From the NCBI GenBank assembly GCA_030753015.1, contig JASMDC010000049.1, positions 1 through 26,159 of the forward strand: a stretch of 26,159 nt of DNA, given 5' to 3'. Below, piece after piece: positions 1,931 through 25,426 of this stretch. This stretch comes from Candidatus Undinarchaeales archaeon (GTDB lineage: Archaea > SpSt-1190 > JASMDC01). The stretch's first letter is position 1; each line of letters starts with the position of its first letter. The notes under the pieces are model-generated. The model saw only the letters and a list, made by a program, of their open reading frames with translations, was not told the DNA's origin and did not search any database. Made by a program: the position numbers and the translations under genes.

Positions 1931-1971
1931 GAGACACGCGGCATGACGTATGAACAAAGGTGGAACGGACC

Positions 1972-3168
1972 ATGATCCCGAACACGCATCACCTGTTCGC
2001 GTTGCTCGCCTGCTGCCTGCTCCTTGCTGGTTGCACCGGCAGCGATTCGCCCGTGGAGGACCCGCGTACCAATGCCAAACCAGTCGGAGCTGACGGTCTC
2101 ATCGCCAGGACAGCGGACATGCCGACCGGAAGCACCCATCACTTCCTTTTCAGGGGGAACACGCCCGCCGTGCTCATCAACGCGAACGGCATGTTCAGAG
2201 CGTACATCAACACCTGCGACCACGAAGGCGGTCCTGTCGTGTTGGATGAGGGAACCCTCGTCTGCCAGTGGCACGAAGCCCAGTTCGATCCGGTCACGGG
2301 TGCCCTGCAGCAGGGACCGGCCACTGGACCCTTGAGCGCCATCCCTGTTACTCTTAAGGATGGCGGCGTGTACCTCACCGAGGCCCTGAAGACTGAGGGG
2401 ACGGTGGTTGCCACACAGATACCCACCACACCTACCGAGGCACCTCCTGCGGCCACACCAGAGCCATCTCCAGCCCGTGCCCCGGGATTCGTTGCGCGTA
2501 CCGGAGACGTGCCCCCCGGGAGTACCTACGAATTCAATCTTGAGGGCAAAGGCGCGATCCTCATCAATTTCAACGGTGAGTATCGGGCCTATATCAACCG
2601 CTGCAACCACGAGGGCGGACCGAACGAACTCAGGGACACAGCCATCGTGTGCAAGTGGCATGACTCCCAGTTCGATCCCAAGACAGGTGCATTGATGAGG
2701 GGGCCGGCCACCGCGCCCCTTGAATCGATCGCGATCGAAGTGCGGGACGGGAGCGTGTTCGTAACGTCTGCAGCAACGGATGCGCCCACGGATGTACCTG
2801 CGCCCACAGAGCCACCAGTCATACCCACGGACGCGCCAGTGATCCCCTCCGAAGCACCGGAGCCGACACCTGCCCCTGCCCCAGGATTCGTAGCGCTTAT
2901 CGACGATGTGCCCCCGGGGAGCACCTACGATTTCAGGTTTGAGGGCAAGCCCGCTATCATCATCAACTTCAACGGACTCTACCGGGCGTACGTCAACAAG
3001 TGCAGTCACCTCGGTGGGCCGAACGAGCTGAGGGACACCGCCATCGTATGCAAGTGGCACGGCGCCCAGTTCGATCCCGAGACCGGTGCCCTCGAGAAAG
3101 GACCTGCGACGGCTCCCCTCGAACAGATCCCGATCACCATCACCGGTGACAGCATCTACGCTCCTTAG
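1972..3168 (+). CDS. Lipoprotein with three tandem Rieske [2Fe-2S] domains
   Basis: 398 residues, predicted to be exported and lipid-anchored. The N-terminus is a signal peptide ending in the lipobox LLAGC (Cys21). Three copies of a roughly 110-residue Rieske-type domain follow. Their ligand pairs are C82-x-H84 with C98-x2-H101, C211-x-H213 with C227-x2-H230, and C344-x-H346 with C360-x2-H363; all twelve ligands are present. Proline/threonine/alanine-rich linkers separate the domains, like flexible cell-surface spacers. The spacing within each domain (13 residues between His and Cys) matches compact ferredoxin-type Rieske proteins more than bc1-type subunits. ATG 1972 was chosen over the in-frame GTG at 1960 because it gives a clean signal peptide and a well-placed GGTGG. 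The gene ends 18 bp before a CcdA/DsbD-like gene, so the two are probably co-transcribed. The partner donor and acceptor are unknown. Confidence 0.9.
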   Translation: MIPNTHHLFALLACCLLLAGCTGSDSPVEDPRTNAKPVGADGLIARTADMPTGSTHHFLFRGNTPAVLINANGMFRAYINTCDHEGGPVVLDEGTLVCQWHEAQFDPVTGALQQGPATGPLSAIPVTLKDGGVYLTEALKTEGTVVATQIPTTPTEAPPAATPEPSPARAPGFVARTGDVPPGSTYEFNLEGKGAILINFNGEYRAYINRCNHEGGPNELRDTAIVCKWHDSQFDPKTGALMRGPATAPLESIAIEVRDGSVFVTSAATDAPTDVPAPTEPPVIPTDAPVIPSEAPEPTPAPAPGFVALIDDVPPGSTYDFRFEGKPAIIINFNGLYRAYVNKCSHLGGPNELRDTAIVCKWHGAQFDPETGALEKGPATAPLEQIPITITGDSIYAP

Positions 3169-3186
3169 TATCATGGAGTGCCCATC

Positions 3187-4923
3187 ATGGTAGATCCTTC
3201 CGGTGTGCTCCCGCCCATCGAGGTCGGACTGGGATACGCCTTCATGTATGGGCTGTCGAACGCCCTTGGTGCCTGCCTCTACTCCTGCCTACCGGTGTAC
3301 ATGCCGATCATAGTGAGCTACGGCGACAGTCCGGAAAAGGGGTTCAAGCTCTCCCTGGGATTCGCCGCCGGGAGGTTCACGGGCTACTTCCTCCTCGGCA
3401 TCGCCGCGGCCATGCTTGGAGCTGCCTTCATCGACATACTCTCCACCACGTTCCCGCGTATCAGTAATGTCGTGCTCGCGATCCTCGGGTTCGTAACGTT
3501 CCTTTATGGTGCGATCGTGGTCTCCCGGACCGGCCTACCTGCCATTTCGGGACACTACTGTGCGGCCTTCCGGGACCGGACACGGGGGATTGACAATCCC
3601 TACTTGGCGGCCTATCTCCTTGGTCTCACGTCGACGGTCACGCCCTGCGTGCCCATCTTCACCTTCCTCCTCCTGCCCTTCGCCCTGGGACGGGTGTGGG
3701 AGACCGTACCGGTGACCCTCGCCTTCGGTCTCGGCGCAAATATCCCCTTCATCGTCATCGGCGTGGGCCTCGCATTGGGCGTGCAGAACGTCAAGCAACG
3801 GTTCGACACCTGGCGCCCCCGGCTCGAGCTGTTCAGTGGTCTGATGCTCCTCTTGTTCGGCGCGATCTACGTTCTCTGGGCCTTGGGGCCCATCCTCTTC
3901 GGTTGGCAGGTGACCTCCTTCGCCCTCCCCGACGTCCGGGACATCATCGCACTTGTGACCTACATTCCCCCCGCGGTGGCCCAGGGGCAACAATTGTCCC
4001 CATGCCTGCTCGTCCACTCCGTACGAACGCCCGGGGCCGAGCCCTATGTCGGTCGGCCGTTCAACGTGGACGTCGTGGTGTCCAACATCTGCGAGAAGCC
4101 CATTGAGGCAAAGCTCATCCCTTCGCTCCCACCCGGACTGCACACCGGTGCATCATCGCCCATCGTGGCAATCGTCGGGCCCCTGCAATACGCCATGCTC
4201 CGGCTCCCCCTCTGGTCCGACGTGGGGTGGGGCGACATCGTCGATGTCAGCCTTTTACTCGCTGCAAGCGACGATCCTGGCCGGTTCCTACATCTGGTTC
4301 TTCCCGTCGAACTGCGCAATCCATTCCTGGAGATGTCCTTCCTCGCCATCACGATCATACTCATTCTCGGAACGCTGGTCCGGCGCTCCCGGAAGGAGGG
4401 TGAGAACACCATGCTCTCGCATGCTCTGAGGACGATGGGGGTCATCATCGTCGCGGTGGCCCTCCTCTCCCTTGTCAGGAATCCCGTTCTCGGGAACGGG
4501 GGATTCTACGACCTCGAGCTCCTTATGGTGGGGGCCGTCATGGCGTTCTGGTCAGCTGACATAGCCGACCTCTTTCAAGATCACCCGGACATGTTCCTTC
4601 TGGCCACGCTGTTCTTCGTCAGGTTCTACCTCTTCGAGCCCGCCTACGGTCTCGGGACCGGAATGGGACAGCTAGCGGCCACGGCCCGTACCTATGTGAT
4701 GGACCTGTCCGTTGCGCTCGTGGCCTTCTTCCTACCGCCCGTGTTCCACTTCAATGCCCACATGTTGCCATCCAAGATCGCCCCTGTCATTGGCGGGACC
4801 GCTTATCTCTGCTGGTGGCTCATCCTGCTCAAGGCCATCAGGAGGACCGCCAGAGCGAGGGCTCCGGCTGCAGAGGATGCCATCGCTCCACCGGGGCTCA
4901 CCGGCGATGCGGGTGCTGCCTGA
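3187..4923 (+). CDS. CcdA/DsbD-like multi-spanning membrane protein with an extracytoplasmic insert
   Basis: About 578 residues. The N-terminal 240 residues resemble the thiol-transporting CcdA/DsbD membrane domain. They have six or so helices in two halves, with cysteines next to prolines near the start of each half (C30, C34 in ACLYSCLPVYMP and C154 in TPCVPIFTF). In the family such cysteines shuttle electrons across the membrane. A soluble beta-rich segment (about 265-385) follows, then about five further helices and a basic/acidic cytoplasmic tail. The architecture is longer than normal CcdA (about 200-240 residues). ATG 3187 is favoured because GGAG at 3175-3178 is correctly spaced; GTG 3178 is the alternative. 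It directly follows the triple-Rieske lipoprotein, which suggests an electron-supply or cofactor-assembly role for it (inference). The last 121 bp overlap the convergent FG-GAP gene. Confidence 0.78.
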   Translation: MVDPSGVLPPIEVGLGYAFMYGLSNALGACLYSCLPVYMPIIVSYGDSPEKGFKLSLGFAAGRFTGYFLLGIAAAMLGAAFIDILSTTFPRISNVVLAILGFVTFLYGAIVVSRTGLPAISGHYCAAFRDRTRGIDNPYLAAYLLGLTSTVTPCVPIFTFLLLPFALGRVWETVPVTLAFGLGANIPFIVIGVGLALGVQNVKQRFDTWRPRLELFSGLMLLLFGAIYVLWALGPILFGWQVTSFALPDVRDIIALVTYIPPAVAQGQQLSPCLLVHSVRTPGAEPYVGRPFNVDVVVSNICEKPIEAKLIPSLPPGLHTGASSPIVAIVGPLQYAMLRLPLWSDVGWGDIVDVSLLLAASDDPGRFLHLVLPVELRNPFLEMSFLAITIILILGTLVRRSRKEGENTMLSHALRTMGVIIVAVALLSLVRNPVLGNGGFYDLELLMVGAVMAFWSADIADLFQDHPDMFLLATLFFVRFYLFEPAYGLGTGMGQLAATARTYVMDLSVALVAFFLPPVFHFNAHMLPSKIAPVIGGTAYLCWWLILLKAIRRTARARAPAAEDAIAPPGLTGDAGAA

Positions 4924-13986: not shown

Positions 13987-15825
13987 GTGCTCAGAACGTC
14001 CCGACCAAGATCGAAGCTCAACTGGTTTCTCAAGAAGCAGACCCGAACGAAGAAGGGCGACACGCGATACGACTACTACAGCATCGTCGAGCCATACTAC
14101 GAGGACGGGAAGAATAAGCACAGGGTAGTATTCCGGCTCGGGCGATTGATGCCTCAGCAGGCACTTCTCGTCAGGAGCCTGCTCAATGCTGCGAAATCCG
14201 GGGATGACGTGCTCTGTCTGAACATCAAGGACATACTTTTCGAGGACCACTGGAGGTATCTGGACGTCGCCTTCCTCAACCACCTCTGGGACGAGTGGGG
14301 GCTATCGAAGGTGTTCCCGTCGCCCGAGGAAACGAGCAGCAGGAGGGGGAAGGACATCGCGACCGCCGACGTCGCGAAGGCACTGACCTTCTACCGGTGC
14401 CTGGAGCCGGGGAGCTACCTCTCGTCGGCGGGGTGGTTCGAGGGGACGGCATGCGACCGCATCCTCGGCATAGACGGCTCACACTTCAACGACTCCAGGG
14501 TGTACCGGGAGCTGACGGTGATCGACGGGCTCAAGGAGAAGCTGGAGACGTACCTCTACACCACGCTGAGGGACAGGGACGAGGAGAGCTTCAAGGTAAT
14601 CTTCTACGACCTTTCCGACTCGTACTTCGAGGGGACCAAGTGCAAGCTCGCGAAACCGGGGATCACCAAGGCCAACGGCTTCAAGAGCAGGAAGATCGTC
14701 CTCTCCCTCCTCGTCAACTCGATGGGCTACCCCTTCTCGTGGGAGATCCTCCAAGACTACACCTCGGACGTCAAGACGCTCACGGCCAACGCTGACCGGT
14801 GGAAGCAACGGTTCGATCTCCCAAAGATCATCTCGGTGTTCGATCGCGGGATGGTGTCCGACGAGAACCTCAAGCACCTGGAGGAGAGCGAAACCTACCT
14901 GTACATCACCGCCCTCGACAAGGACCAGGTCGCCGGCGTGCCCGGCGTCCGTCTGGACCGGTTCAAGGACCTCACTGTGGAGAATGTCGAGAAGAAGGTC
15001 GGCCGCTCACGGTTCCTCACCAAGTACGACGACTGTGCGTACTACGAGGATCTTGGTACGGCCGAAGGATCGGTCAGGCGTCACATCCTGGGGTTCAACC
15101 CCGAGCTCTTCAAGGACCAGAGGAAGCAGCGCGAGGAGCAGATCAAGAAGGCACTGGACTGCCTGAAGGAGGAAGGGGCGGCGCTGCTGAAGGCGAAGAA
15201 GAGCAGACAGAAGAAGCCGACTGAGCAACGGATCGACCGCAAGCTCAAGAAACTGAACGTGACGCGCTTCATCGGCTACGAGCTCAAGGAAATTGAGCTG
15301 GAGAGCGGGGTGCGGACCTTCGAGCTCAGCTACCGGAAGAAGACAAAGGCGATCGAGAAGGCCAAGTTGACCGACGGCCTCTGGGTACTCGTCACCAGCA
15401 TAACCGCGGATACGCAGCCGAGGGAGTTCAGGCTCGGGCCGGAGGAGATCATCAGGGCCTACCGCGACAAGAACCGCGTGGAGGAGGCGTTCAGGGAGCT
15501 GAAGTCGTTCATCAAGTTCAAGCCGACGTTCGTCTACACAATGGAGCACGTCAGGGCCCATTACACCATCTGCATACTCGCGTATCTCTTGGACGTGACG
15601 GTCACCAACAGGCTGCGCGAGGGCCCGATAGAGGGCATGACCAGTGTGAGGAAGGTGTACAAGCTCCTGGAGCGGATCAGATTGGGAGAGCTGAAACTTC
15701 GGGGCATGGATCGAACGGTGAGAAGGATCGTCACCCCGAGACCGATCGAAAAGGACGTGCTGAGATCATTCGGTTGTGAACACTTGCTGAAGAAGACGTA
15801 TCTTCGGTCGATACAGACCGACTGA
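13987..15825 (+). CDS. IS1634-family (DDE) transposase
   Basis: 612 residues from a GTG, the full length for this family. It catalyses cut-and-paste-type movement of the surrounding element. The catalytic triad is recognisable: first Asp in VIFYDLSDSYFEGTKC, second in ISVFDRGMVSDENL, and the Glu in the C-terminal Y-x2-K-x-R-V-E-E-A-F-R-E-L-K signature (YRDKNRVEEAFRELKSF). A long, charged insertion (about residues 375-430) separates the last two. The N-terminal 60 residues carry the usual family start (YDYYSIVEPYYEDGKNKHRVV). No ribosome binding site is obvious, and the upstream TTAAATAAG/TAACTAGATAAC stretch may be the promoter. Codon choice resembles the host genes, so it may have moved within related genomes. 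Confidence 0.93.
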   Translation: MLRTSRPRSKLNWFLKKQTRTKKGDTRYDYYSIVEPYYEDGKNKHRVVFRLGRLMPQQALLVRSLLNAAKSGDDVLCLNIKDILFEDHWRYLDVAFLNHLWDEWGLSKVFPSPEETSSRRGKDIATADVAKALTFYRCLEPGSYLSSAGWFEGTACDRILGIDGSHFNDSRVYRELTVIDGLKEKLETYLYTTLRDRDEESFKVIFYDLSDSYFEGTKCKLAKPGITKANGFKSRKIVLSLLVNSMGYPFSWEILQDYTSDVKTLTANADRWKQRFDLPKIISVFDRGMVSDENLKHLEESETYLYITALDKDQVAGVPGVRLDRFKDLTVENVEKKVGRSRFLTKYDDCAYYEDLGTAEGSVRRHILGFNPELFKDQRKQREEQIKKALDCLKEEGAALLKAKKSRQKKPTEQRIDRKLKKLNVTRFIGYELKEIELESGVRTFELSYRKKTKAIEKAKLTDGLWVLVTSITADTQPREFRLGPEEIIRAYRDKNRVEEAFRELKSFIKFKPTFVYTMEHVRAHYTICILAYLLDVTVTNRLREGPIEGMTSVRKVYKLLERIRLGELKLRGMDRTVRRIVTPRPIEKDVLRSFGCEHLLKKTYLRSIQTD

Positions 15826-17235: not shown

Positions 17236-17246
17236 GATATTTATCG
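17236..17246 (+). promoter_or_regulatory. TATA-like box for the 17268-18244 operon
   Basis: GATATTTATCG lies 21 nt before ATG 17268. Confidence 0.5.
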
Positions 17247-17267: not shown

Positions 17268-17492
17268 ATGGCCAAGTGCGATCAAGAACTCGCCATGTTC
17301 CTCAACGATGCCCTTCTCGTGGAGGACCTGGAGCTGGCCGTCAAGATCAGCAACCTCATCGAGCGTGTCACGCTCTCCCCTATCGAGAAAGGATCGAAGA
17401 TGGAGATGCTCACCCGGCTCAACTCCCTCCTGTACGAGACGCACGCCCACTCCCTGATCTTCTCCAAGGCCCTGAAGGAGGTGTTGAGCTGA
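17268..17492 (+). CDS. Small all-helical protein, 74 residues
   Basis: Predicted helical throughout (CDQELAMFLNDALLVEDLELAVKISNLIERV, then EKGSKMEMLTRLNSLLYETHAHSLIFSKALKEVL), with no membrane segment. ATG 17268 is fixed by the TATA-like box 21 nt upstream. Its TGA overlaps the next ATG (TGATG), so it is translationally coupled to the ferritin-like/RecA-like gene and probably works with it. No family is recognised. Confidence 0.7.
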   Translation: MAKCDQELAMFLNDALLVEDLELAVKISNLIERVTLSPIEKGSKMEMLTRLNSLLYETHAHSLIFSKALKEVLS

Positions 17493-18244
17493 TGGCGGAC
17501 GACCTTCGTGACCATCTCATCAAGGAGTTCACGGCGCTCAAGGACATCGAGCGCCAGGCCCACGACTACTACACAGACCACCTCGACCTGATCAAGGACA
17601 AGAAGCTCAGGGGGGTCGTGTCCGACATCGCCCAGGAAGAGCTTCATCACGAGTCCATCGCAGGAGAGCTCATCAAGCTGGCCAAGTCGCTCCCTGCGGG
17701 CGAGGCCACAGCGGACGTCGAAGGGGCGGGTGAGGCTATGACCGCCATCGAGGAGGCCACTGAGGACCTTGATAGCCCGCTCACGCTCCTCGTCCAGACA
17801 AGTCTCGAGAACTACCCCCGGACATGCCAGGCGCTCATCACGTACTTCAGACGTCAGGACAGACCTGTCCGGTACGTGTCGGTGAACAAGCCAGCCTCCA
17901 AACTCAAGCGCATTCTAAAGAAGCGCGGGGCCGAGGTCGACGACGTGTCCTTCATCGATCCGGTCACATCGACGAGCGGAATAATGTTGGACCCCAAGAA
18001 CCTCACCACTCTGTCCGTGCTGTTCACGCGCAACTCCGGAGAGGACATGGTCGTCATCGTCGATTCGCTCTCGGTGTTGTCTGTGTACCACTCAAAGGAC
18101 ATCCTACAGCGGTTCGTCCACTCCACGACCATGGGCGCGAAGATGAGGGGCGTCGACCTGGTGTTCCTCACCATGGACGCAGAATCGGACATCGGTAACG
18201 ATCCGAGCTTCGAAGCGTTCTTCGATGATGTCGCGAAGGTCTAG
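17492..18244 (+). CDS. Ferritin-like helical domain fused to a degenerate RecA/KaiC-like domain
   Basis: 250 residues. The first 70 form two long helices with carboxylate/histidine residues that recall a di-iron ferritin-like half-bundle (KEFTALKDIERQAHDYYTDHL, then DIAQEELHHESIAGELIKLAK, containing E-x2-H). The C-terminal 165 residues have the strand-helix pattern of a RecA/KaiC-type domain: LTLLVQTSLENYP, PVRYVSVNKPASKLK, a Walker-B-like hydrophobic-Asp DMVVIVDSLSVLSVYHS, and GVDLVFLTMDAES. No Walker A GKT/S loop is present, so ATP hydrolysis is doubtful. Such degenerate domains often act as signal-output or scaffold modules in archaea. The two assignments are pattern-based. It is coupled to the small helical protein upstream and overlaps the convergent TPR gene by 4 bp at the stops. 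Confidence 0.6.
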   Translation: MADDLRDHLIKEFTALKDIERQAHDYYTDHLDLIKDKKLRGVVSDIAQEELHHESIAGELIKLAKSLPAGEATADVEGAGEAMTAIEEATEDLDSPLTLLVQTSLENYPRTCQALITYFRRQDRPVRYVSVNKPASKLKRILKKRGAEVDDVSFIDPVTSTSGIMLDPKNLTTLSVLFTRNSGEDMVVIVDSLSVLSVYHSKDILQRFVHSTTMGAKMRGVDLVFLTMDAESDIGNDPSFEAFFDDVAKV

Positions 18245-21800: not shown

Positions 21801-21822
21801 GATGACAAACCTACTTCCGGGT

Positions 21823-22104
21823 ATGGACACGGACCCGGCCCTCCTGCTCAATCTGGGGCTGGGCGTGCTTGCCCTCATCATGAGCGCCAAGCTCGCCTTC
21901 AAGCTCAAGCCCGACATCATCGGTACGGCATGGAAGAGCTCTGTCATGGTGTCCGTGCTCTACGTAATCCTCAAAGGAGGTCAGGTCGTGGGTGATGCAC
22001 CCACCCAGATCGTGGAAGTGCTCCTGGCATTGACGGTGTGCGCGTCGCTGATATTCCATAACAAGGTACTTGCGGGGGTGGGGTCCGATGGAGGGTCTGT
22101 CTGA
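21823..22104 (+). CDS. Small three-helix membrane protein (operon gene 1)
   Basis: 93 residues, three predicted helices (LLLNLGLGVLALIMSAKLAF; SSVMVSVLYVILKGGQVV; IVEVLLALTVCASLIFHNKVL) with a charged first loop. It leads an operon with two further small genes and overlaps the next by 17 bp. Its third helix ends in ASLIFHNK, which resembles ASLLIFHK at the end of the first helix of the next protein. The overall plan (helix, charged loop, helix, Gly/Pro loop, helix, Lys) is the same, so the two may be distant paralogues or subunits of one complex. Function unknown. Confidence 0.72.
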   Translation: MDTDPALLLNLGLGVLALIMSAKLAFKLKPDIIGTAWKSSVMVSVLYVILKGGQVVGDAPTQIVEVLLALTVCASLIFHNKVLAGVGSDGGSV

Positions 22105-22372
22105 GGCATCCTACGCGCTCATGGCCCTCGCGGGCCTGGGTGCCGCCTCCCTGCTCATCTTCCACAAGGACGAGGAGATGGACAAGTCCCAGCGATACTA
22201 TTTCATCGCTCTCATCGCCCTGGCCGTCGCCTCGGGACTGCGTCTAGCCGGACCGTCGGTGCTCCCCTTCGTGGAGCCCTTCGAGGCGGTTTTCGCGCTG
22301 TTCCTGGGTGTGTCCATCTACGTGCAGAAGGACAGCACGCCCGACGCGTCGTCAAGAAAGGAGGACGAGTAG
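22088..22372 (+). CDS. Small three-helix membrane protein (operon gene 2)
   Basis: 94 residues with three predicted helices (SYALMALAGLGAASLLIFH; YYFIALIALAVASGLRLAG; VEPFEAVFALFLGVSIYVQ) and charged tails. ATG 22088 sits inside the end of gene 1, with a G-rich GGGGGTGGGG ribosome binding region. It shares its layout with the preceding protein. No family recognised; such pairs often act as sensor or transporter membrane subunits, which I cannot verify here. Confidence 0.72.
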   Translation: MEGLSEASYALMALAGLGAASLLIFHKDEEMDKSQRYYFIALIALAVASGLRLAGPSVLPFVEPFEAVFALFLGVSIYVQKDSTPDASSRKEDE

Positions 22373-23762: not shown

Positions 23763-25277
23763 TCACCCCGCCAGCAGCTGCCAGCACTTCTCCGTGGCCT
23801 CGAGGCGCTTGGTGGCGCCGTCCTCGACCTCCACGAGATAGCCGAGCCTGATGAGCTCGCGGATGCGCTTTCGTGCCGTGGGCTTGCTGATGGCAAGCTC
23901 CCGGTCCACGTCCGAGTAGGAGGGTCGCTCCCCGTCGAGCCCGGTACGGTACACGTACCGCACGATGGCCAGCAGCTCCTCCGAGATCCCGCCGAGCTCG
24001 CGTGCGTCCACCTGCTCGCATTCCTTCTCCAAGCGGCGTAGCGCGCGCTCGTCCAGGTCCGACGGATCGACGCCAAGGACGATGACATGACCGCCCACAT
24101 AGGCCATCTCCCGCAGGTGCTGCACGAAGGAAAGCGTGGCCTCCAGCCCGTTCTTGAACAGGATGTAGTCGAGCCGGTCGATGAGGACGGCGCTGTGCCG
24201 TGGCAAACCGCCTATGCGGCGCTCGAGCGCGGTCAGCCGCGGCGGCACTCCCCGCTCGCCACCATGCTCGGCCAGCCAGACATAATCGTACTCGCCTTCG
24301 AGGTCCTTGCGGAACGCCTCCTCGGTCGTGCACGAGATGACCGTCCCGTCGTAGCCCGTGGTAAGGAGGTCCTTGAACGCTTCGACGTAGTGGCGGTGGG
24401 TGCGGCCTTTCATAAGATAGACCTGCCCCTCATCGAGGAGATAGCGCATCAGCCTGCGGCGCAGTAAGCGCTCGGCCTCACGTCGCTCGGTGACGTCCTC
24501 GAGCGACAGCAGGACACGCTCACCATGGCCGGGCCGTCGCTGGAGCCGGCGTGCGCTCAGCAGCATCGTCCGCGTCCCGGCCCCAGGGAGCTCGCACCCC
24601 ATCTCGGCCCCGTCGACCGGCTGGCCCTTCTGCAGGACGTCCTCGAGCAGGCGCCGCAGTCGCCACACGTCCCACTGCCCGCCGCCCAGCCCGTAGAGCG
24701 GGCGTCCCTCGGTGCGCTTTCCCGTGGTACGGAAGGTACGATAGAACGCTCGGTTGGCCGAGAGCACCTTGAGCCCGTCGTCCAGCACCACGAGCGGTAC
24801 GGGGACTGTCTCGACGATGTTCACCGCGAATTCCTGGAGCTGCTGCTCGGCCTGCTCGAGCTGGCGACGCGCGGTGACATCGACCATGAACTCGATCACG
24901 TGGGTGACCGCGCCCTTCTGGTCGTGGACGGGATAGACGTGAATCTCCGTTGTCAGCGGTTGTCCCTCGGCGTCCTTGTGTACGTGGTCGACCGTTACGG
25001 CATTGCCCGTCCGCACCACCTCGTCGAGCGGGCAGGGCTCGTCATCGCCCGTGCACGGGATGTCCCGCTCGTGGGTGAGCTCGTGGCACGTGATACCCTC
25101 TCTGAACTCACCGCTCGGGCCAGCGGTGTTGGCGGCGACCACTTGGTGCGTACGGGCGTCTATTACCATGAACGTGTGCGGGTGGTGGTCGAGGAACGAG
25201 CGGAGCACACGCTCGCCCAGCGTTCCGTCGCTCCCGACATGCTTGCCACCGGCCATGAGGGTGCTTTTTTTCACCAT
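23763..25277 (-). CDS. PAS-domain sensor protein with DUF835-like domain and winged helix
   Basis: 504 residues. Two PAS-type domains come first: about 15-140, with cysteines in ITCHELTHERDIPC and GDDEPCPLDE, ending in HVIEFMVDVTARRQLEQ; then about 150-275, VPVPLVVLDDGLKVLSANRAFY, ending in VLLSLEDVTERREAERLL. A DUF835-like alpha/beta domain follows (YLMKGRTHRHYVEAFKDLLTTGYDGTVISCTT to HSAVLIDRLDYILFKNGLEATLSFVQHL). A C-terminal winged helix (SYSDVDRELAISKPTARKRIRELIRLGYLVEVED) probably binds DNA. This reads as a cytoplasmic one-component sensor-regulator, an architecture common in Thermoplasmata and related archaea. The four cysteines and histidine of PAS 1 could bind metal, heme or an Fe-S cluster. 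ATG 25277 follows GGAGGGAGG; the TnpB element's end hairpin abuts this site, so its natural promoter may have been displaced. Confidence 0.82.
   Translation of the reverse strand: MVKKSTLMAGGKHVGSDGTLGERVLRSFLDHHPHTFMVIDARTHQVVAANTAGPSGEFREGITCHELTHERDIPCTGDDEPCPLDEVVRTGNAVTVDHVHKDAEGQPLTTEIHVYPVHDQKGAVTHVIEFMVDVTARRQLEQAEQQLQEFAVNIVETVPVPLVVLDDGLKVLSANRAFYRTFRTTGKRTEGRPLYGLGGGQWDVWRLRRLLEDVLQKGQPVDGAEMGCELPGAGTRTMLLSARRLQRRPGHGERVLLSLEDVTERREAERLLRRRLMRYLLDEGQVYLMKGRTHRHYVEAFKDLLTTGYDGTVISCTTEEAFRKDLEGEYDYVWLAEHGGERGVPPRLTALERRIGGLPRHSAVLIDRLDYILFKNGLEATLSFVQHLREMAYVGGHVIVLGVDPSDLDERALRRLEKECEQVDARELGGISEELLAIVRYVYRTGLDGERPSYSDVDRELAISKPTARKRIRELIRLGYLVEVEDGATKRLEATEKCWQLLAG
23765..23783. 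repeat. 19-bp direct repeat, right copy (end of the PAS/DUF835 gene)
   Basis: Identical to 22627-22645; here it encodes the WQLLAG C-terminus of the PAS/DUF835 protein, followed by TGA instead of the TAG of the left copy. Confidence 0.8.
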
Positions 25278-25293
25278 CCTCCCTCCAAGGAAG

Positions 25294-25322
25294 CCCCCCA
25301 ATTCATTGGGGGGATGAATTGG
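25294..25322. repeat. Two mutually exclusive hairpins at the TnpB element's left end
   Basis: Hairpin 1 pairs CCCCCCAAT (25294-25302) with ATTGGGGGG (25305-25313). Hairpin 2 pairs CCAATTCAT (25298-25306) with ATGAATTGG (25314-25322); both stems are 9 bp and perfect. CCCCCCAAATT recurs at 25384-25394 and could compete for the G run. IS200/IS605 elements carry subterminal hairpins at their ends, and the position fits a left end. An RNA switch in front of the sensor gene is an alternative. Confidence 0.6.
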
Positions 25323-25426
25323 AGAGTAGTACGTCGTGACACCTTCGCCGTGAACCCTCCCTGGGAGAAATACCGGCACGCTGCCCCCCAAATTGATAAA
25401 TGAGCTAAATGATAGAACATGGACTG

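Follow-up and report, generated by a model that had tools for sequence, protein, structure and literature searches.

An EncFtn-like half-ferritin fused to an inactivated KaiC domain and its small overlapping partner gene: a candidate iron- or redox-sensing pair in archaea

Proteins of the EncFtn family (TIGR04535/NF058679, Pfam PF22277) are two-helix half-ferritins, joined to an encapsulin shell or a targeting peptide, that form iron-dependent decamers with ferroxidase activity. In the Rhodospirillum protein the iron ligands are Glu32, Glu62 and His65, together with Tyr39; the acidic ligands of the EncFtn subunits repel each other when no iron is bound, and Fe2+ stabilises the dimer (PMC5012862). 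For archaeal fusion-FLPs the motif DXXXEE62XA(T)H65 has been described (PMC11202242). The same general E...ExxH half-ferritin pattern is found in the MbfA iron exporter, COQ7, rubrerythrin and DUF2383, which are membrane or four-helix proteins without a KaiC-like fusion; profile matches to these families are weak. A second, separate group of proteins is formed by the iKaiC domains, i.e. inactivated KaiC-like ATPase domains, which are found in archaeal signalling together with REC and PAS domains (PMC5847659). These comprise DUF835, DUF7504, MEDS and unnamed archaeal proteins; they have the KaiC fold and the Walker-B Asp, lack the P-loop, and are encoded in signalling contexts. Here we describe an archaeal gene pair whose larger product resembles both groups, as it joins an EncFtn-like hairpin to an iKaiC domain.

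The window, a stretch of 26,159 nucleotides from a Candidatus Undinarchaeales archaeon (contig JASMDC010000049.1), belongs to a genome of 3.85 Mb, compared to 0.6-1.1 Mb in other members of the class. On its forward strand it encodes a 74-aa protein (P0001, 17268-17492) and a 250-aa fusion protein consisting of a half-ferritin and an inactivated KaiC domain (P0002, 17492-18244). As proposed in the initial annotation, which was made from the letters of the sequence, the two reading frames are coupled through a TGATG stop/start overlap at 17490-17494 (+). A Shine-Dalgarno-like GGAGGTG (17477-17483, +) precedes the ATG of P0002 by 8 bases, and an A/T-rich element resembling a TATA box, GATATTTATC (17236-17245, +), is located 23-32 bases 5' of the ATG of P0001, a position compatible with leaderless archaeal transcription of the pair; both are putative elements read from the sequence. 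The G+C content of P0001 by codon position (0.56/0.29/0.87) follows a coding pattern and resembles that of the neighbouring genes. The 3' end of P0002 meets a convergent TPR gene at 18241-18244, and the genome contains one copy each of P0001 and P0002.

A search for conserved neighbours in other archaea, as suggested in the initial annotation, revealed that the overlapping pair recurs. Among 394 archaeal genomes, only Hadesarchaea archaeon MAG-18 (G282) gave a match that covers the N- and C-terminal halves of P0002 together (aa 15-231), on contig JACIWF010000104.1 (loci L057 and L148, which are identical). Here, a 74-aa gene (P0004) lies upstream of, and overlaps, a 242-aa gene (P0003). P0003 shares 25% identity with P0002 (E 6e-10) and keeps all four ligand positions discussed below, while P0004 shares 27% identity with P0001 (E 7e-4 in a single comparison), with LNxLLxExxxH in common. 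In the genome-wide search the weak P0001 match in this genome sits just upstream of the P0002 homologue; the chance of such a match falling within 300 bases of that gene is roughly estimated at ~5e-5, based on ~40 matches at E<=1 over ~5e8 bases. The membership of this 3.2 kb contig in its bin is doubtful (G+C 47.8% vs 54.7% for the bin, tetranucleotide r 0.59); the sequence itself is an independent homologue. Mis-binning was also considered for the contig of the window and was rejected, as its aRF1 gene best matches two genomes of the same class (G004, G002).

Complete examples of the overlapping pair thus number only two. The other 27 of the 28 examined genomes of the Hadesarchaea-side phylum lack the pair, G282 being its sole carrier, and so do the other members of the window's own phylum (10 genomes examined); when 84,980 genomes were scanned with single-protein patterns, no close relatives were returned. 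Such a patchy distribution, with the pair missing from the rest of the phylum, might be expected of a toxin-antitoxin-like or mobile-element cargo pair, and both the overlap of a small gene with a larger one downstream and a DDE transposase at 13987-15825 would be in line with this view. Nevertheless, we consider it very improbable: scans of viral contigs and plasmids returned no match, PADLOC and PHROGs give none either, both domains have known non-toxic homologues, and a dihydrouridine-synthase gene separates the transposase from the pair.

The N-terminal domain of P0002 (aa 1-66; 17492-17689, +) was predicted by AlphaFold2, using a seven-sequence alignment, to form a hairpin of helices 2-33 and 37-65 with a pLDDT of about 92-94, and hence displays the two main antiparallel helices by which a half-ferritin is defined. 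Among the NCBIfam models, P0002 best matches the encapsulin-associated ferritin-like protein model TIGR04535 (E 2.4e-5), followed by EncB and MbfA, although with 24.3 bits the score is far under the curated cut-off of 125 bits. TIGR04535 is also the best match (E 7.1e-6) of a stand-alone 67-aa homologue from another archaeon (L113; G227:C176). A profile built from three N-domain sequences (P0002, P0003 and L113) was compared with solved structures, the first four of which were the bacterioferritin 9viw, 3k6c, the rubrerythrin-like 2fzf and EncC 7s8t (E 0.002-0.036); 3k6c is an EncFtn (PMC11202242).

The residues E20 (codon 17549-17551), Y27 (17570-17572), E50 (17639-17641) and H53 (17648-17650, all +) of P0002 are spaced +7/+30/+33, exactly as E32/Y39/E62/H65 of EncFtn. 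They correspond to E16/Y23/E46/H49 in P0003 and to E18/F25/E48/H51 in L113. While these three sequences show only ~25% identity, the equivalents of E20, E50 and H53 are among the 8 of 66 columns that are invariant, and the Y27 column reads Y/Y/F. Moreover, D45xxxE49E50xHH53 follows the archaeal fusion-FLP motif (DxxxEExxH), and the EELHHE stretch, in which the initial annotation had noticed an E-x2-H element within a two-helix unit, contains E50-x2-H53. Taken together, ligand pattern and structural model establish the N-terminal domain of P0002 as a predicted EncFtn-type half-ferritin hairpin, which would bind iron via E20, E50 and H53 (and Y27). The recurrence of both genes in an independent homologue at 25% identity, along with three ligand positions that fall into the few invariant columns, places the observation beyond chance.

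The full ligand set at EncFtn spacing could also mean that P0002 mainly acts in iron or oxygen detoxification or as a ferroxidase, i.e. as a free-standing EncFtn relative in which the iKaiC domain merely provides a scaffold or oligomerisation module. The existence of a half-ferritin that stands alone, L113, is in line with this explanation. However, the encapsulin family PF04454 remained unmatched in both the window's genome (98.9% complete) and G282, while controls including Thermotoga maritima were matched. Without an encapsulin gene in either genome there is no shell for iron storage, and elsewhere iKaiC domains belong to signalling proteins and gene clusters, so that we regard a predominantly ferroxidase role as unlikely. 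The lack of PF04454 matches also makes P0002 an unlikely encapsulin cargo. P0002 further differs from EncFtn in being fused to an iKaiC domain instead of to a shell or targeting peptide, and in the probable degenerate half-ferritin encoded beside it. Two other EncFtn-like genes were encountered during the survey. The gene of L113 (12-215) is situated at a contig edge where its upstream neighbour is cut off, and L126 (2103-2357; G280:C8) encodes an EncFtn-like protein with a TIGR04535 score of 86 bits, compared to the 125-bit cut-off; it precedes an inositol-monophosphatase-like gene, with no encapsulin recognised nearby.

The small partner P0001 is likewise predicted to be a two-helix hairpin (3-35, 41-73), with a pLDDT of 88.8 for the best AlphaFold2 model and a spread of 53-89 over the five models. 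Its profile aligns in register with the N-domain profile of P0002 with an hhalign score of 19.7 (E 0.0025), at a probability of only 11.7%; the reversed profile scored 14.2, and the scores of 200 block shuffles averaged 9.9 (s.d. 1.8) and reached at most 16.0. The Hadesarchaea-side homologue P0004 weakly matches DUF2383 (E 0.0036) and MbfA (E 0.017), both of them ferritin-like families. At the ligand positions, P0001 and P0004 carry D20 and E21 at the position of the FOC Glu, T58 and N51 in place of the bridging Glu, and H61 and H54 for the His. Hence, the acidic residue and the His are kept while the bridging Glu is lost in both proteins, and the Tyr ligand is absent from the partner as well. 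Comparison of the P0001 model with solved structures listed generic helical hairpins only and no ferritin, a non-specific outcome that excludes nothing.

P0001 is thus likely a half-ferritin that has diverged and degenerated, and it would form an asymmetric four-helix bundle with the hairpin of P0002. The initial annotation had suggested that the partner could complete the bundle, and this part of its proposal receives only indirect support: a hairpin of the same size, a weak profile similarity above that of the shuffles and ligand positions in degenerate form are all suggestive of it. Alternatively, two P0002 hairpins may pair with each other and be capped by P0001. The loss of the bridging Glu and of the Tyr in the partner could, on the other hand, indicate that the metal site is vestigial and that the helical bundle of P0001 and the N-terminal hairpin serves as a protein-protein adaptor recruiting the iKaiC domain; helical hairpins are, after all, common dimerisation modules. 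Against this view, three ligand positions (E20, E50, H53) are invariant in sequences as divergent as the three compared here, and the Y27 position is occupied by Y/Y/F; we judge it a rather unlikely alternative to a functional metal site.

In the AlphaFold2 model a KaiC-like alpha/beta domain starts at residue 82 of P0002 (aa 82-250; 17735-18241, +). It shares its overall fold with KaiC/RAD55-like ATPases, FlaH and PH0284: VIA gave Z 12.9 for KaiC (158 residues, 3.3 A), 12.2 for FlaH and 11.8 for PH0284, and KaiC is also the top Foldseek match. At the family level, six of the seven sequences aligned for the structure prediction match DUF7504 and DUF835, and five of seven match KaiC, mostly below the curated cut-offs. 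In contrast to the active ATPases, P0002 has no Walker A motif (G-x4-GK[ST]): when P0002 is aligned with P-loop KaiC proteins encoded at the retrieved loci, its QTSLENYPRT faces their GKIGTGKT. The catalytic glutamates of KaiC are missing too, as P0002 reads NKP where the acidic pair follows strand 2. The Walker-B Asp D191, part of the strand VVIVDS (aa 187-192; 18050-18067, +), is kept and is invariant in our iKaiC sample (alignments A3, A6). With Walker A and the strand-2 glutamates replaced, ATPase activity is not expected of this domain. Thus, the C-terminal domain is, by its alignment and predicted fold, an inactivated KaiC-family domain, which bears out the reading of the initial annotation that the C-terminal half is RecA/KaiC-like, with a Walker-B-like but no Walker A sequence. 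The same annotation had named two outcomes that would speak against it, namely that neither fold is predicted or that the N-terminal ligands are unconserved; when examined, both folds were predicted and the ligands were found to be conserved.

Matches to P0002 were obtained in 63 of the 394 archaeal genomes, nearly all of them to the C-terminal domain and in the form of free-standing proteins of ~190 aa; a broad nine-sequence alignment proved too variable for use as a scan profile. By analogy with the iKaiC domains of the literature, the C-terminal domain of P0002 may have a part in archaeal signal transduction. It differs from them in its N-terminal partner, since the partners described in the literature consulted are REC and PAS domains, with no ferritin-like input module among them.

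The window's genome contains 16 matches to the KaiC-like ATPase family PF06745, with no KaiC ATPase gene beside P0001-P0002 in the window. Elsewhere in this genome, a cluster (L173; G000:C22:75000-86000) combines two iKaiC genes with genes for at least three ATPases of the KaiC type, including a double-domain protein, and also encodes a PAS protein and a probable membrane sensor. The loci L143-L146 of Archaeoglobus and Geoglobus contain a succession of three genes, for an iKaiC protein, a 250-aa protein and a KaiC ATPase. A P-loop KaiC-type gene was found within 3 kb of 24 of 59 sampled iKaiC genes, adjoining or overlapping in 13 of the 59, against a background of 102/381 within 3 kb in the same pre-selected loci, so that the proximity of iKaiC and KaiC genes is only suggestive. 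The window itself encodes a second iKaiC-type protein (23766-25391, -) of PAS-PAS-DUF835 architecture (E 4.7e-14) with a weak C-terminal helix-turn-helix, likely a one-component regulator. Two overlapping small hydrophobic proteins (21802-22372, +) recall small membrane proteins encoded next to iKaiC genes in other archaea, for example at L004 and L011. At the other end of the window the gene of a protein that is predicted to be exported and carries three Rieske [2Fe-2S] domains in tandem (1960-3168, +) is followed downstream by the gene of a DsbD-like membrane protein (3178-4923, +).

From the well-supported anatomy of the pair we infer that its products may bind metal, form a complex and take part in signalling. 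We put the probability at roughly one half that P0001 and P0002 constitute a small iron (or O2/redox) sensory complex in which a half-ferritin feeds an inactive KaiC adaptor. In such a complex, the bundle formed by the two hairpins would bind iron through E20, E50 and H53 (and Y27), and iron loading, or oxidation of the iron by O2 or peroxide, would alter how the subunits assemble, a change that the fused iKaiC domain would then pass on to a protein partner. Since no ATP hydrolysis is expected of the iKaiC domain itself, it would naturally act on another protein. The most plausible candidate is an active KaiC-like ATPase, for which P0002 would act as a regulatory subunit or adaptor.

KaiC-like ATPases were reportedly proposed as signalling hubs by Makarova, Galperin and Koonin in 2017. 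A more specific and clearly more tentative idea, which we regard as possible rather than probable, is that an iron-gated, asymmetric half-ferritin heterodimer, made up of a competent and a degenerate hairpin encoded by overlapping genes, acts as input domain for an inactive KaiC adaptor, thereby linking such hubs in archaea to iron or O2 status. Half-ferritins and iKaiC domains are each known, while their fusion, accompanied by a probable degenerate half-ferritin partner, is undescribed as far as we found: a full-text literature search, the reach of which did not extend to the main KaiC-hub paper, returned no archaeal fusion of a ferritin-like and a RecA-like domain.

The inputs of archaeal KaiC-like and iKaiC proteins are largely unknown, and a ferritin-type module would mean that one branch of them responds to a concrete, testable ligand, namely iron, O2 or peroxide. 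If true, half-ferritins would reach beyond their role as encapsulin cargo into signalling. Moreover, the two proteins may represent a natural asymmetric half-ferritin pair, which bears on the origin of the four-helix ferritin fold.
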